The translations under genes were made by a program, and so were the position numbers. Shown here one piece after another: positions 25,675 through 32,133 of a DNA stretch of 36,926 nt. Origin of the DNA: Burkholderiaceae bacterium. Lineage in GTDB: Bacteria; Pseudomonadota; Gammaproteobacteria; Burkholderiales; Burkholderiaceae_E. The stretch is taken from NCBI GenBank assembly GCA_900299025.1, contig OMIE01000036.1, forward strand, positions 1-36,926. The letters run 5' to 3'. The notes under the pieces are model-generated. The model saw only the letters and a list, made by a program, of their open reading frames with translations. It searched no databases and had not been told where the DNA came from. How positions within the stretch are numbered: position 1 is the first letter of the stretch; each line of letters begins with the position of its first letter.

Positions 25675-25750
25675 GGGTCGTTAGCTCAGTCGGTAGAGCA
25701 GCGGACTTTTAATCCGTTGGTCGCTGGTTCGAATCCAGCACGGCCTACCA
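25675..25750 (+). tRNA. tRNA-Lys (anticodon TTT)
   Basis: The 76-base sequence folds as a standard cloverleaf with the CCA end encoded (25748-25750). The anticodon loop CTTTTAA puts TTT at 25708-25710, giving Lys. The D arm GCTC/GAGC, a five-base variable loop and the T arm GCTGG-TTCGAAT-CCAGC are normal. The acceptor stem GGGTCGT/ACGGCCT contains two G-U wobbles (G1-U72 and U4-G69), and the anticodon stem has G27-U43. Common bacterial tRNA-Lys genes have a fully paired GGGTCGT/ACGACCC stem. I see no terminator immediately after. Confidence 0.96.
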
Positions 25751-25836
25751 CCAAGATTCAGATTGGTCATACGACCGTCTTCAGCAAAAGCTTGGTAGGA
25801 TCGTCTCGTTGACCTGATAATAAAAGAGGTTTGCCA

Positions 25837-26922
25837 GTGAGACGCTACTTCATCCGCCGCTCTGCAGAGCGGTCCATACAAACCTTTGGGACGATCCGTG
25901 GGCTGGCCGCACTTAGCGCCCGCTCTATCGGGAGGGAAAAAAGCGCACTCGCAAGTGCTACTACTGGCCTTGCAGCTATGTCCGCAGCAGGCATGCTGAC
26001 TGAGGCTAAGGCACAAAACGATCGCTTTCCGTCTCGCGCACTCACCATGGTCGTACCATTTCCTCCAGGGGGTGTTGCAGATACGGTCGGTCGACCGATC
26101 GCCGAGGCAATGAGCCGAGCACTCGGACAGTCGGTCGTCGTTGAAAATAGAGCGGGTGCAGGTGGTGCGATTGGCATGTCCCATGTTGCCAGGGCGAAGC
26201 CCGATGGTTACACCTTGCTGATGGCGCTTGTGTCGATTTCGACCATCCCGGTCGCCGACGAAGTCCTGGGCAGACCCCCGTCCTTCAGTCTCCAACAACT
26301 GCGGCCCATTGCAAGAATCACCGCCGATCCAACCGTCTTAGCCGTTGCTGCAGACGCACCATACAAAAACTACGCATCTTTTGAACGTTATGCCAAAGAT
26401 AATCCAGGCAAACTCAACTTCGGATCCTCGGGTAATTACGGCACGATGCACGTGCCCATGGAGATGCTCAAACTCGCACGTGAACTGAAGATGACGCATG
26501 TGCCCTACAAGGGCGCAGGACCCGCAGTGCTTGGGCTTCTCAGTGGCGAAATTAATCTCGTGGCAACCGGCCCAGCCTCGATTCTTTCGCATGTGAAGGC
26601 AGGCAAGATAAGAGTGCTTGCCCATTGGGGTAAAGAGCCTTTGCAAAGCATGCCCGATGTGCCAAGTTTTGACGGACTCGGCATACCGATCCATTTTTCA
26701 CAATGGTCCGGGATTTTTGTGCCTTCGGAGACACCGCCGCTGGTTATTAACCAACTAAGGCAGGCGGCCAAACAAGCAGCATTCGACCCGAAAGTACAAG
26801 CAGCCATTACCAGCGCTGGCAGCCCTATCCAATATCTTGATGCACCCGAGTTTGCCCAGTTTTGGGCCGAGGACGCCAAGACGCTCGCCGAAGTCGTACG
26901 CCGTATCGGAAAAGTCGATTAG
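25837..26922 (+). CDS. Bug/TctC-family tripartite tricarboxylate transporter binding protein
   Basis: This is a periplasmic substrate-binding protein of the Bug (TctC) family, abundant in Burkholderiales, which bind small carboxylated compounds. The core begins FPSRALTMVVPFPPGGVADTVG, followed by VVENRAGAGGAIGMSHVARA, DGYTLL and FGSSGNYGTMH, all family hallmarks. The 361-aa length exceeds the usual 320-330 because of a leader of about 60 residues. The start GTG at 25837 has an AAAGAGG site at 25823-25829 and opens with RRYFIR, similar to a twin-arginine motif; cleavage probably falls near AKAQ. No TctA/TctB membrane genes are adjacent, which is usual for Bug orphans. Confidence 0.9.
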   Translation: MRRYFIRRSAERSIQTFGTIRGLAALSARSIGREKSALASATTGLAAMSAAGMLTEAKAQNDRFPSRALTMVVPFPPGGVADTVGRPIAEAMSRALGQSVVVENRAGAGGAIGMSHVARAKPDGYTLLMALVSISTIPVADEVLGRPPSFSLQQLRPIARITADPTVLAVAADAPYKNYASFERYAKDNPGKLNFGSSGNYGTMHVPMEMLKLARELKMTHVPYKGAGPAVLGLLSGEINLVATGPASILSHVKAGKIRVLAHWGKEPLQSMPDVPSFDGLGIPIHFSQWSGIFVPSETPPLVINQLRQAAKQAAFDPKVQAAITSAGSPIQYLDAPEFAQFWAEDAKTLAEVVRRIGKVD

Positions 26923-26932
26923 GGCGCAGCAT

Positions 26933-27037
26933 GGCTAGTCGCCTAAGACCTCGTTCGAATCGCCTACGCCAAGGTTTGATTCGTCTAACACCTCGTTCGA
27001 ATCGCCTAGGATTGTGTTTGAATATGGGCCTGGTTAC
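26933..27037 (+). repeat. 21-bp-period imperfect tandem repeat array
   Basis: Five 21-base units run from 26933 to 27037. Units 1 and 3 (from 26954 and 26996) share TTCGAATCGCCTA exactly. Units 0 and 2 (from 26933 and 26975) share the ending ACCTCG, so there is a 42-base super-period; 26939-26966 and 26981-27008 match at 26 of 28 positions. Unit 4 is the most diverged (TTTGAATATGG). The array fills most of the 159-base gap between the Bug gene and the SGNH-like gene. It is open in several frames, so coding potential is ambiguous. Confidence 0.8.
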
Positions 27038-27081: not shown

Positions 27082-27549
27082 ATGATGGACTGTCTCATTC
27101 TTGGTGATGAAATCGCCGAAGGCATTAAGCAGTTTCGCCCCGAATGCGTGACGAAGACGCAGGCAAATGCTCCCACCGATCGATGGATTCGAGAAAACGG
27201 TGTGAAATTTGCAGCGAAAACAGTGGTCATCAGTCTTGGGACTTATGACGCGCCGAGCCAGACGCTTGAAAACGAGGCGCTGGACAATTTAAGAAAACTA
27301 CGAGCAGGCATTGAGGCTGATCAAGTATTCTGGCTTCTACCGGCCAAGGCCAAACCAGCAGACGCGATGCGCGAACTTGCAAGGCTTTATAAAGATCATC
27401 TGATGATCATTGAAGAAAAACAACGCAATCAAATTCACCCGACAGAACGTGGCGCAGAACTGCTTGCGACCCAGTCGCATACCAAAGGGAAAATGGATTG
27501 GACCAAGCCGACCTGGCCAAAGCGGGCACCACCCTTAATTGGCGGCTGA
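27082..27549 (+). CDS. Small SGNH-hydrolase-like protein lacking catalytic residues
   Basis: The 155-aa protein follows the layout of short SGNH-fold proteins: CLILGDEIAEGI (block I position), TVVISLGTYDAP (block III position), VFWLLPA and IHPTERGAELLA (block V position). The catalytic residues differ. The block I Ser of GDS is Glu (GDE), the block III Asn of GxND is Tyr (GTYD), and the Asp of DxxH is Asn (NQIH); only the His remains. It therefore looks like a pseudoenzyme. No signal peptide is visible, so it is probably cytoplasmic. The tail is basic and Pro/Trp-rich (MDWTKPTWPKRAPP). The family assignment is my reading of motifs, not a database match. Confidence 0.6.
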   Translation: MMDCLILGDEIAEGIKQFRPECVTKTQANAPTDRWIRENGVKFAAKTVVISLGTYDAPSQTLENEALDNLRKLRAGIEADQVFWLLPAKAKPADAMRELARLYKDHLMIIEEKQRNQIHPTERGAELLATQSHTKGKMDWTKPTWPKRAPPLIGG

Positions 27550-27779: not shown

Positions 27780-28145
27780 ATGGCCACGAAGTCGAATCAA
27801 AACCAAGTTGATCTTTATTTCCACTACCAATCGCTTTTGCAAAAGGCGACCACATCACAAGGGCTCGAAGAGTTATCGCCCGATCATGTGGCTTTGCTCG
27901 TCTTGATCGGACAGCACTGGCACGAAGGTGAAGCCCTATCGGTACGCCAGTTGATGCAAATGCGTGAAGTTGCCTCACCCGCCACGATTCACAAGCGTTT
28001 GCACCAACTTAAGGATGCCGATCTCGTGAGCTTCGAGGAATCTGCGACTGATACGCGCAAGCGGATGATTACGCCGACCAAGCGCGCACTCGCCTACTTC
28101 TCGGCAGCATCCAAAGCGATGATGCAGGCTGTTAAAGCCTCCTAA
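27780..28145 (+). CDS. MarR-like winged-helix DNA-binding protein
   Basis: This 121-aa protein looks like a compact winged-helix regulator. It has an N-terminal helix (QVDLYFHYQSLLQKA), a predicted helix-turn-helix around LSVRQLMQMREVASPATIHKRLHQLKDADLV split over about residues 58-84, and a wing with basic residues (DTRKRMITPT). The last helix (AYFSAASKAMMQAVKA) may dimerise. The ATG at 27780 follows an AAGAGGAGG site, so translation should be strong. It sits alone, followed by a good terminator. The target and ligand are unknown. Confidence 0.75.
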   Translation: MATKSNQNQVDLYFHYQSLLQKATTSQGLEELSPDHVALLVLIGQHWHEGEALSVRQLMQMREVASPATIHKRLHQLKDADLVSFEESATDTRKRMITPTKRALAYFSAASKAMMQAVKAS

Positions 28146-28989: not shown

Positions 28990-31900
28990 TTAAGTAGGCG
29001 CCTTCACGCGATAAAACCGCACGTAAAGTGCTGGAACTACTAAAAGGGTCAAAAGCGTCGCAACCAACAATCCGCCCATGATGGCGAGTGCCATAGGACC
29101 CCATAAGACGTCGCGTGATAAGGGAATCATCGCAAGAATTGCCGCAGCCGCGGTCAAGACAATCGGTCTGAATCTTCGGACTGCCGATTCCCGTACGGCC
29201 TGCCAGGCAGGCGCACCCTGTTCACGATCGATGCGGATCTGCTCGACCAAGATTACGGTATTTCGCATGATCATCCCCCCGAGTGCGATCGTACCAAGCA
29301 TTGCAACAAAGCCGAATGGCTTTGAAAACAGTAGCAAAGCTCCGGCAACGCCAACAATGCCAAGAGGCGCTGTGATCAAGACCAGCAAACTTAAACCTAG
29401 GGTTCTAAGTTGGAGCATCAATAAGGCACAAACGATGGCAAGCATCATGGGCATACCTGCGTTAATCGAGGCCTGAGCCGCAAGATTGTCCTCAAATGGC
29501 CCGCCGATTTCGACGCGATAATCAGGCGGTAATTTTTGTTTGATGGCTCCAAGCTTTGCATCAATGGCCAGTGCTAAATCAGGTGCCTGAATCCCATCAA
29601 CCATGTCAGCACGAACCGTGAGGGTGGGGATACGACTGCGGCGCCAATAAATCGGCTCTTCCATCGCCAACTCGATGCGTGCGAGTTGCTCGAGCGGAAT
29701 AGATTTCCCAAATCCATTGGTCACCTGTATCGAAGCAATACGATCGAGTTGCTCGCGTTCATCGGGCGTTGATCTCAAAACAATATCGATCAACTGGTCA
29801 TTTTCTCGATACTGGCCAATGGCCGTGCCATTCAAAGTGCTCGATACCGATCGCCTGATCTGCGCTGTTGATACCGCAGCGGCACGCGCCTTGTCCTGAT
29901 CTACTTCGACCCTCAGCACGGGGCTTCGGTCGCCCCAATCGATATGAGTTTCGACGGTGTTGGGATTGGCGCGAACCTGATCGGCAACCTGCGCGGCAAT
30001 CTCCTTTAAGCGCACGGGGTCAGGTCCCATCACCCGAAACTGAATCGGATAAGCAACCGGTGGTCCAAGCGGGGTACGGAATACTCGGGCACGTACCCCA
30101 GGAAAATCCTCAGCGAGCTGTCTTCTCAGGCTTGCAAGTACTTGATCACGACTTGCCACATCCGATGTGAGAATGACAAATTGTGCGAAGTTAGGCCGAT
30201 AGAGTTGCTGGTCGAGCGACAAATAATAGCGCGGTGATCCATTGCCAACATAGCTCACAAAGGTTGAAACCTGCTTATCGGCCAAGAGTATGTTTTCCAA
30301 ACGCTTAGCCTCGAGCTCGGTCGCTTTCAGACTCGAGCCTTCCGGAAGCCACATCTCGACCAGCAGTTCAGCACGATCAGACGAAGGAAAAAATTGCTTC
30401 TCGGTTGCCGCCATACCAAAAACACCGAGCACAAAACTCAGAACAGTCGCCAGAATCGTCAGGTTTGCGTGGCGCATGCACCAGTTGATCAGCGCCCTCA
30501 GGCGCCGATAAAAGAGGCTATCGAAGACTTCGCTGTTATGACCGCCCTGCGCCTCGGCCTGACCTTGATTGGCATGACCACCCGGTACCGCCGCCTGCCC
30601 CTTTATGGGGTCATCGTGCTTTGACTTAAGCAGGTAATAACCTAGAAACGGCGTTGCGAGCACGGCAGCAATCCATGAGACCAATAGCGCTAAGGACACC
30701 ACGGCAAAGATCGCAAAAGTGTATTCACCGGTTGAAGACTTAGCCGTCGCAATCGGCAAAAATCCAGCAGCCGTAATCAGGGTTCCGGTGAGCATAGGGA
30801 AAGCGGTGTGTTGGAAGGCATAGGTTGCTGCCGCGAAACGATCAAAACCTTCCTCGATTTTTCGCGCCATCATTTCTACAACGATCATCGCATCGTCAAC
30901 GAGAAGGCCTAGCGCGATAATCAAAGCGCCGGTCGACACCCGATGTAAATCAATACCAAACCAAGCCATGCCAAGAAAGGTTGCGGCAAGGACCAGTGGA
31001 ATCGTTAGCGCAACCACCCCACCCGCTCGCAGGCCTAAGCTTAAAAAACTAACTGCAAGGACAATGGCGACTGCCTCAAGCAGCGATTGCATAAAGAGGC
31101 CCACCGCCTTTTTAACCAAACGCGGTTGATCAGAAACCTTAGCCGCTTGGATCCCAACAGGCCACTCTTGTTGCATCGCGAGCATAGCCGCATCAAGATT
31201 TGATCCAAGTTTTAAAACATCACCACGTCGAACCATCGATACAGCAAGCCCGATCGCTTCTTTGCCGCCGTAGCGCATCGTATAAACCGGCGGGTCTTGG
31301 TAGGCCCGATGAACCCGTGCGATGTCCGATAATTGCAAGCTGCGGCCGTTGATAAAAATCGATAGCTTTGAAATCGAATCAAGGGACTCAAGCCCACCAC
31401 TGATTCGTAAAGGAATCGACAATTGAGGCCCGTGGATGACCCCTGAGGGGGAAATCAAATTTTGCGTTTGTAACTGGGTAATCAGCTGACCTGGATCGAG
31501 GCCGAGCGCAGCGAGTTTGGAGCTCGACACTTCGATATAAATCTTCTCATCTTGAACGCCTATAAGTTCAATTTTTGACACATCCGGAATTCGTAATAGG
31601 TTTTGGCGGACTTGCTCGACATGGCGTTTGAGTTCAGCAAGACTCAAGCCATCGCCTGTAAAAGCCCAAATCGAACCAAAAACATCACCAAACTCGTCAT
31701 TAAAAAATGGACCCACTACATCAGCCGGTAGCTGTCCTTTCAAGTCACCAATCTTTTTGCGAACCTGGTACCAAATCTGGGGAACCTCAGCTGCAGGCGC
31801 AGTATCGAGTAGTTCCAAGACAATCAAGGATTCGCCAGCCCTTGAGTAGCTCCTCGTGTGCTTGAAGTACGGGATCTCCTGGAGCTTTTTCTCAATTCGA

Positions 31901-32133
31901 TCGGTCACCTGCTGATCGGTTTGCTCGGCGCTCGCGCCAGGCCATATACTGCGGATCACCATGGCTCGAAAAGTGAAATCGGGATCTTCGCGCTGACCTA
32001 ACTTGAAGTAAGACATCGCCCCGGCGATAGCGATGACCGCAATAAAAAATATACTTACCTGAGGCCAACGCAGAGCGAGCGCAGAAAGATTCCAAACCGA
32101 GCTTTGGCTCGGTGTGTAAGGAGCTTGTTTCAT
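28990..32133 (-). CDS. RND efflux pump inner-membrane transporter
   Basis: This is a proton-driven RND permease of the AcrB/TriC type (1047 aa, normal length). It has 12 predicted helices, a first helix followed by KLGQREDPDFTFRAMVIRS and WPGASAEQTDQQVTDRIEKK, and the proton-relay pair in LGLLVDDAMIVVEMM (about residue 412). The late segment GAPAWQAVRESAVRRFRPI is the family signature. REDPDFTFR resembles TriC-like pumps more than AcrB. The cytoplasmic linker between helices 6 and 7 (about residues 507-533) carries an unusual Gln/Gly-rich GGHANQGQAEAQGGH stretch. Three bases separate it from the adaptor gene. Substrate is not identifiable. Confidence 0.93.
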   Translation of the reverse strand: MKQAPYTPSQSSVWNLSALALRWPQVSIFFIAVIAIAGAMSYFKLGQREDPDFTFRAMVIRSIWPGASAEQTDQQVTDRIEKKLQEIPYFKHTRSYSRAGESLIVLELLDTAPAAEVPQIWYQVRKKIGDLKGQLPADVVGPFFNDEFGDVFGSIWAFTGDGLSLAELKRHVEQVRQNLLRIPDVSKIELIGVQDEKIYIEVSSSKLAALGLDPGQLITQLQTQNLISPSGVIHGPQLSIPLRISGGLESLDSISKLSIFINGRSLQLSDIARVHRAYQDPPVYTMRYGGKEAIGLAVSMVRRGDVLKLGSNLDAAMLAMQQEWPVGIQAAKVSDQPRLVKKAVGLFMQSLLEAVAIVLAVSFLSLGLRAGGVVALTIPLVLAATFLGMAWFGIDLHRVSTGALIIALGLLVDDAMIVVEMMARKIEEGFDRFAAATYAFQHTAFPMLTGTLITAAGFLPIATAKSSTGEYTFAIFAVVSLALLVSWIAAVLATPFLGYYLLKSKHDDPIKGQAAVPGGHANQGQAEAQGGHNSEVFDSLFYRRLRALINWCMRHANLTILATVLSFVLGVFGMAATEKQFFPSSDRAELLVEMWLPEGSSLKATELEAKRLENILLADKQVSTFVSYVGNGSPRYYLSLDQQLYRPNFAQFVILTSDVASRDQVLASLRRQLAEDFPGVRARVFRTPLGPPVAYPIQFRVMGPDPVRLKEIAAQVADQVRANPNTVETHIDWGDRSPVLRVEVDQDKARAAAVSTAQIRRSVSSTLNGTAIGQYRENDQLIDIVLRSTPDEREQLDRIASIQVTNGFGKSIPLEQLARIELAMEEPIYWRRSRIPTLTVRADMVDGIQAPDLALAIDAKLGAIKQKLPPDYRVEIGGPFEDNLAAQASINAGMPMMLAIVCALLMLQLRTLGLSLLVLITAPLGIVGVAGALLLFSKPFGFVAMLGTIALGGMIMRNTVILVEQIRIDREQGAPAWQAVRESAVRRFRPIVLTAAAAILAMIPLSRDVLWGPMALAIMGGLLVATLLTLLVVPALYVRFYRVKAPT

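Follow-up and report, generated by a model that had tools for sequence, protein, structure and literature searches.

The window, the 36,926-nucleotide stretch of DNA analyzed here, encodes a 155-amino-acid protein that is probably a domesticated SGNH-fold pseudoenzyme of mobile-element ancestry, located in the cytosol and with a binding or regulatory role. Its open reading frame (ORF) is uninterrupted, sits on contig C36, and is present in single copy in a draft genome of 2.97 Mb (Table 1). The protein starts with MMDCLILGDEIAEG, and the original prediction had correctly read from the sequence both the intact frame and the motifs GDE, GTYD (residues 53-56), and NQIH (within NQIHP, residues 116-120).

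Table 1. Features of the pseudo-SGNH locus, in window coordinates.
Feature	Position	Strand	Basis or conservation
tRNA-Lys(TTT), 1.3 kb upstream of the pseudo-SGNH gene	25675-25750		prophage attachment site in sister genome G001
TctC/Bug-type solute-binding protein, upstream neighbor	25831..26922	+	PF03401; syntenic in G001, G003
Pseudo-SGNH ORF, 155 aa, stop codon within coordinates	27082..27549	+	orthologs in 4/4 genomes of the genus
SGNH-like core, residues 1-132	27082..27477	+	alignment to phage/plasmid relatives; AlphaFold2 model
Codon 10, catalytic Ser to Glu (block I, GDS to GDE)	27109..27111	+	
Codon 29, block-II Gly (oxyanion hole) to Asn	27166..27168	+	
Codon 55, block-III Asn (oxyanion hole) to Tyr (GxND to GTYD)	27244..27246	+	
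Codon 116, block-V Asp to Asn (DxxH to NQIH)	27427..27429	+	
Codon 119, block-V His kept	27436..27438	+	
Codon 125, Tyr to Ala (HPxxxGY to HPxxxGA)	27454..27456	+	Tyr invariant wherever the column is aligned
C-terminal extension, 23 aa, basic, GKxDWTxxxWPKxxPxLIxG	27478..27546	+	
Small MarR-like winged-helix protein, downstream neighbor	27780..28145	+	PF12802, below family cut-off; syntenic in G001, G003
RND efflux transporter	28990..32133	-	neighbor also in G002

The family assignment was reached through relatives and through structure. No Pfam model matched the window protein, and neither Pfam nor PHROG yielded a dedicated family or a useful name for the short SGNH family described here. Phage relatives with 29-43% identity carry the motifs GDS, (K)GG, GSND, and D-x-x-H-P. 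Of the 57 family members aligned, 52 have a hit to Pfam PF13472 at E<=1, the best at 3e-9. Both results back the earlier alignment by eye with SGNH hydrolases. The homology spans the whole core, which is equal in length to that of the phage and plasmid proteins, with tblastn E-values of 4e-16 to 2e-26 obtained in small candidate sets. The AlphaFold2 model of the window protein, for which 55 aligned sequences served as input (pLDDT 86.1, pTM 0.83; 98.0 and 0.92 for a phage relative), and the structure searches made with it agree on a three-layer alpha/beta/alpha SGNH fold. The best Foldseek matches in the PDB were GDSL lipases, PatB, OatA, and TesA, and the best 50 rows from VIA-align were all SGNH/GDSL-type proteins, headed by the Staphylococcus aureus OatA catalytic domain (Z 13.3, 2.5 A, 130 residues) and continuing with esterases and TesA (Z 11-12). 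By sequence, the alignment profile matched DUF459/PatB and TesA weakly among solved structures. Structure prediction and fold search thus place the protein inside SGNH, as had been proposed.

What has changed is the catalytic set. Positions S10, G29, N55, D116, and H119 (window numbering) are invariant in 96/96 of the relatives first aligned, whereas all four genus members have Glu, Asn, Tyr, and Asn at the first four, leaving only His119; the Ser, block-II Gly, block-III Asn, and block-V Asp that characterize SGNH enzymes are missing in every one of them. The Ser/His/Asp triad of peptidoglycan O-acetylesterases is likewise incomplete in the window protein. The original prediction had counted three catalytic losses beside a retained His; those losses hold, but the count was too low, as the block-II Gly has also been replaced. 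It had also described the scaffold as kept, which is right for the fold but overlooked the change of an invariant Tyr to Ala at position 125. We considered a misalignment of block II and rejected it: the alignment is free of gaps from the block to the next Thr/Trp and all first-set relatives have Gly at that column, so the loss of this residue stands.

Among 63 relatives remaining after redundancy removal at 90%, 24 columns are at least 97% invariant, and five of these are changed in the genus (S10, G29, N55, D116, and Y125). By arithmetic from these counts, a chance choice of columns would place S, G, N, and D among the five with a probability of about 5e-4 (20/42504). The invariants that the genus has retained include C4, G8, D9, C22, G53, D56, R74, W84, A100, D105, H119, and P120, and the sole deviations within the retained set are at positions 12 and 14 and affect single genomes. 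The start M-x-[DE]-C-L-I-L-G-D is also shared with the short phage and plasmid proteins. C4 and C22 sit on strands 1 and 2 and show no variation in any relative of the invariance analysis, active or not; they may serve in a disulfide, in redox chemistry, or structurally.

Extending the comparison to 171 relatives added few exceptions to the catalytic set. Ser is absent in two proteins, L194 and L207 (described below), and the block-II Gly is replaced by Ser in two phage copies that are almost identical and by Arg in four sphingomonad plasmid copies (L209, L210, L212, and L213) that retain Ser, Asn, Asp, and His. Active PatB1 likewise has a block-II Arg (PMC9487903), and by this precedent the sphingomonad copies may be active. 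The search patterns accepted Glu as well as Ser in block I and Tyr as well as Asn in block III; the contrast between active-looking and replaced sequences is therefore no search artefact, and we rejected a search bias toward active members. When only the four genus sequences served as queries, the search returned one additional phage pseudo-member, L194, and no E/N/Y/N combination outside the genus.

In the Streptomyces rimosus lipase, Ala in place of Ser10, Asn82, or His216 yields an inactive enzyme (PMC10779480). Since one substitution among these residues is enough to kill that lipase, and Ser, Gly, Asn, and Asp are all replaced here, hydrolysis by the SGNH mechanism is very unlikely in the window protein, to judge from its residues and from this analogy.

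The gene has nevertheless been kept as a protein-coding gene, which is the point on which a pseudoenzyme parts from a decaying copy. Our sample comprises a single genus with four genomes, three of which are close to one another, and orthologs are present in all four, with identities of 95, 88, and 74% to the window protein; two of the members are public Betaproteobacteria MAGs (VGHV01000114 and VGHO01000016). Differences at the three codon positions number 15/7/83 between the window and G003 and 33/22/93 between the window and G002. For the window and G003, dN is about 0.07 and dS 1.5-3.4, for a dN/dS of about 0.02-0.05; for the window and G001 the ratio is about 0.16, and synonymous sites are saturated or nearly so for the other pairs. 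E10, N29, Y55, and N116 are retained in the four genomes despite synonymous codon changes at each of them. Within the genus, 29 of 34 pocket columns are invariant, against 69 of 98 in the rest of the core (p = 0.065), which is only suggestive of an added constraint on the pocket. Selective constraint acts on the protein as a whole. With an uninterrupted frame, retention in related genomes, and strong purifying selection, and with the Glu, Tyr, and Asn replacements, together with N29, found in all four members, the earlier preference for a pseudoenzyme over a lone decaying copy is well supported.

The conserved protein includes a C-terminal extension of 23 amino acids that is found across the genus and is absent from the phage relatives. 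The model has low confidence there (pLDDT 42-56), and the tail carries a net charge of +4 against -2 for the core of the window protein. At the other end, we found no feature of export to the cell envelope: the first residues form beta-strand 1 of the AlphaFold2 model, and stop codons lie 10-20 codons 5' of the ATG in G003, G001, and the window. These upstream stops leave no room for a signal peptide, and by this reading of the sequence the protein should be cytosolic.

The surroundings of the gene are chromosomal. The window, G001, and G003 share the gene order TctC-type receptor, pseudo-SGNH gene, MarR-like protein, and Crp-type regulator, followed in the window and G003 by a convergent RND transporter; the G001 contig stops short of the RND position. 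In G002, the most divergent genome, the RND gene is still a neighbor, and a 35-residue MarR remnant lies between it and the pseudo-SGNH gene. These conserved neighbors and the retention in G002 identify a fixed chromosomal gene of the genus that has outlasted its MarR neighbor. A strict dependence on that neighbor was rejected, as the MarR gene has decayed in G002, and a present location in a resident prophage is unsupported, the neighbors being chromosomal in all four genomes. The MarR-like family has six matches in the window's genome, one of them broken by stops, four in G001, and three in G003, and the remaining genomes of the bacterial family have few. Directly upstream of the pseudo-SGNH gene, at 26939-27008, lie 3.3 copies of a 21-bp tandem repeat with the unit TCGCCTAAGACCTCGTTCGAA, present in G001 and absent from G003; the 14-mer GTTCGAATCGCCTA within this unit occurs nowhere else in the genome, and the repeats are possibly an operator array. 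Promoter and terminator scans gave chance-level results only, and the locus bears no sign of a defence island.

Outside the genus, none of 70 other genomes of the family carries the gene, the one positive among 399 genomes searched at the level of the order was the window itself, and a class-level search returned only distant, longer open frames with weak E-values. The short SGNH family, of about 130 amino acids (usual length of the relatives, 130-136), is carried mainly by freshwater phages and conjugative plasmids. A profile search found more than 570 matching stretches in viral contigs, and copies are present in the annotated podovirus MW202640 and the unannotated phage scaffold MT835823. 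The plasmid copies are alphaproteobacterial or from Azospira, with about half of the larger set typed conjugative, and a few further copies lie in bacterial contigs. We infer from this distribution that the gene of the genus came from a mobile element, in the direction from phage to host. No phage relative exceeds about 43% identity to the window protein, and in a tree the genus sits on a long branch (1.69 changes per site) with no resolved sister. The tRNA-Lys gene is a possible entry route for a phage gene: in G001 (L016, 4300-4760) its anticodon-to-3' part borders directly on an integrase gene and a phage-like block, and the step from there to the present locus would be a conjecture built on this arrangement.

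The genus is not alone in lacking the catalytic set. L194, on the viral contig IMGVR_UViG_3300032284_002195 (1828-2238), reads GDQ, a block-II Ala, GVND, and NKSYP; its ORF is intact and overlaps the stop that precedes it, and hhalign assigns the protein to the family with a probability of 99.6. L207, on the Acidisoma sp. PAMC 29798 plasmid NZ_CP126995 (5986-6993), joins an SLT lytic transglycosylase domain (PF01464, residues 156-284) to an SGNH-like domain (hhalign 99.5 to the family) that reads GDG and GASD, lacks both the Ser and the Asn, and is devoid of block V. Its neighbors, TraF, a type IV secretion DNA-transfer protein, and a relaxase, mark a conjugation locus; the existing annotation names it a lytic transglycosylase domain-containing protein and nothing more. 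Both proteins share C4, C22, R74, W84, A100, and D105 with the window protein. By their sequences the two have lost the catalytic set independently, and as each is a single sequence, decay is possible for both.

Weak but converging hints suggest that the active members of the family work on esters in the cell wall or in other polysaccharides. Transglycosylase genes lie near several plasmid and contig copies, a weak hint given that such genes occur on conjugative plasmids in any case; the L207 fusion is a better one. MW202640 has a lysozyme two genes away from its copy, a cell-wall hydrolase lies near 11 phage copies, and, by eye, the Rhodopila copies have a probable MBOAT gene nearby and the plasmid copy L208 has a start that resembles a signal peptide. 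The closest folds, OatA and PatB, point the same way. Lytic transglycosylases are blocked by O-acetylation of MurNAc, which Ape esterases reverse (PMC6174289). Many phage copies (L013, L087, and others) have a different neighborhood, with an AhpC/TSA peroxiredoxin gene before (28 loci) and a CMD-family gene after (26 loci), an arrangement that gives no hint of a cell-wall function.

A binding or regulatory role is, by analogy with other SGNH proteins, the most economical reading that remains once hydrolysis is set aside. We envisage that a short SGNH protein of a phage or conjugative element would have become a fixed chromosomal gene in one betaproteobacterial genus; that the changes Ser to Glu, Asp to Asn, Gly to Asn, and Asn to Tyr, in leaving the His alone, would have abolished serine-ester hydrolysis while the fold and the non-catalytic invariants were retained; that the refurnished pocket (E10, N29, Y55, N116, and H119) may be a cytosolic binding site for a small ligand or for a macromolecule; and that the basic Trp-Pro tail specific to the genus could supply an additional docking surface.

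The closest precedent, by analogy, is the OSK domain of insect Oskar, an inactive SGNH domain of likely bacterial descent that binds RNA (PMC2848206, PMC7250577, PMC6191285, PMC12247748). Like the window protein it has the SGNH fold, has lost key catalytic residues, and has been retained by selection, in its case after a likely horizontal transfer from bacteria. Oskar, however, belongs to another kingdom, has a LOTUS partner domain that the window protein lacks, and has lost the Ser and His of the triad (PMC2848206), whereas the window protein keeps the His; OSK would serve as a precedent only. In CtCE2 of Clostridium thermocellum the esterase active site doubles as a cellulose-binding site (PMC2661963), so that an SGNH-type active site serves non-catalytic ligand binding, but that enzyme retains its own Ser-His dyad and esterase activity. 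Peptidoglycan esterases of the OatA/PatB/Ape type offer the closest solved folds (PatB, Z 11.8, after the OatA catalytic domain), and some active short-SGNH relatives adjoin the cell-wall genes described above; these enzymes are active and extracytoplasmic, whereas the window protein has no signal peptide and none of the catalytic Ser, Gly, Asn, and Asp. Escherichia coli TesA (thioesterase I/protease I) has the fold in common (Z ~11.3) and differs in being periplasmic and in having an active Ser-His-Asp triad. The open-licence papers that we searched contained no bacterial or phage SGNH pseudoenzyme of this kind.

The main rival to a binding or regulatory role is an enzyme whose pocket has been rebuilt for other chemistry, in which the roles of acid/base, nucleophile, or metal ligand would fall to E10, Y55, and H119. 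Glu, Tyr, and Asn are chemically functional residues, they are fixed beside the kept His in all four genomes, Glu or Gln has arisen at the Ser position in two lineages (Glu in the genus, Gln in the phage protein L194), and the OatA catalytic domain, the closest solved fold, has a Zn-bound entry (6wn9). We nonetheless regard a rebuilt enzyme as unlikely: no SGNH enzyme with Glu replacing Ser was found among known ones, L194 has lost the His as well, so that Glu or Gln at this position is not tied to a retained His, and no metal-binding pattern is evident. Neutral decay, in which a phage-gene remnant would stay open by chance, would account for the joint loss of several catalytic residues, but we give it next to no credence and rejected it on the codon pattern and the retention. 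The dN/dS values of 0.02-0.16 were obtained at near-saturated synonymous sites, the frame is uninterrupted and the replaced residues are identical in all four genomes, and in G002 it was the adjacent MarR gene that decayed.

Two further readings are each improbable. A captured, inactive phage protein could interfere with an incoming phage or plasmid by poisoning or competing with its active homolog; the overwhelmingly phage affiliation of the relatives, their presence on conjugative plasmids, and a locus 1.3 kb from a tRNA-Lys that is a prophage attachment site in a sister genome are all in keeping with this, but the modest identity to the phage relatives, the lack of defence-island signs around the locus, and the presence in all four genomes of a gene where defence genes are usually patchy tell against it. 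Slightly less probable again is an allosteric or scaffolding partner for the remaining active SGNH hydrolase of the genome. Pseudoenzymes often regulate active relatives, and each genome of the genus has exactly one PF13472 match above cut-off; that single enzyme, however, is encoded on a different contig and is a remote member of the family, and the features of the pseudoenzyme all indicate the separate phage/plasmid subfamily.

The SGNH fold and the idea of an SGNH pseudoenzyme were already known. Our search of open-licence papers turned up no conserved pseudoenzyme from bacteria that belongs to a phage/plasmid SGNH family with recurrent loss of catalysis. More speculatively, and against the balance of probability, the short SGNH family may have discarded catalysis at least three times because its scaffold has a second conserved activity, marked by C4, C22, R74, W84, A100, and D105, for which the bacterial copy would have been domesticated, perhaps as a sensor of, or a defence against, mobile elements with the active enzyme.

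Few SGNH pseudoenzymes have a known non-catalytic role, and Oskar, the best known that we found, probably derives from bacterial DNA. The 155-amino-acid protein adds a bacterial case, conserved through saturated synonymous change and joined by many active-looking relatives, and the comparison with these offers a clean before and after of the change from an esterase pocket to a binding site. The recurrent loss in phage and plasmid, once in a lytic transglycosylase fusion, makes a second function of the fold in mobile elements testable. For proteins such as these, the automatic transfer of an "SGNH/GDSL hydrolase" annotation would be wrong.
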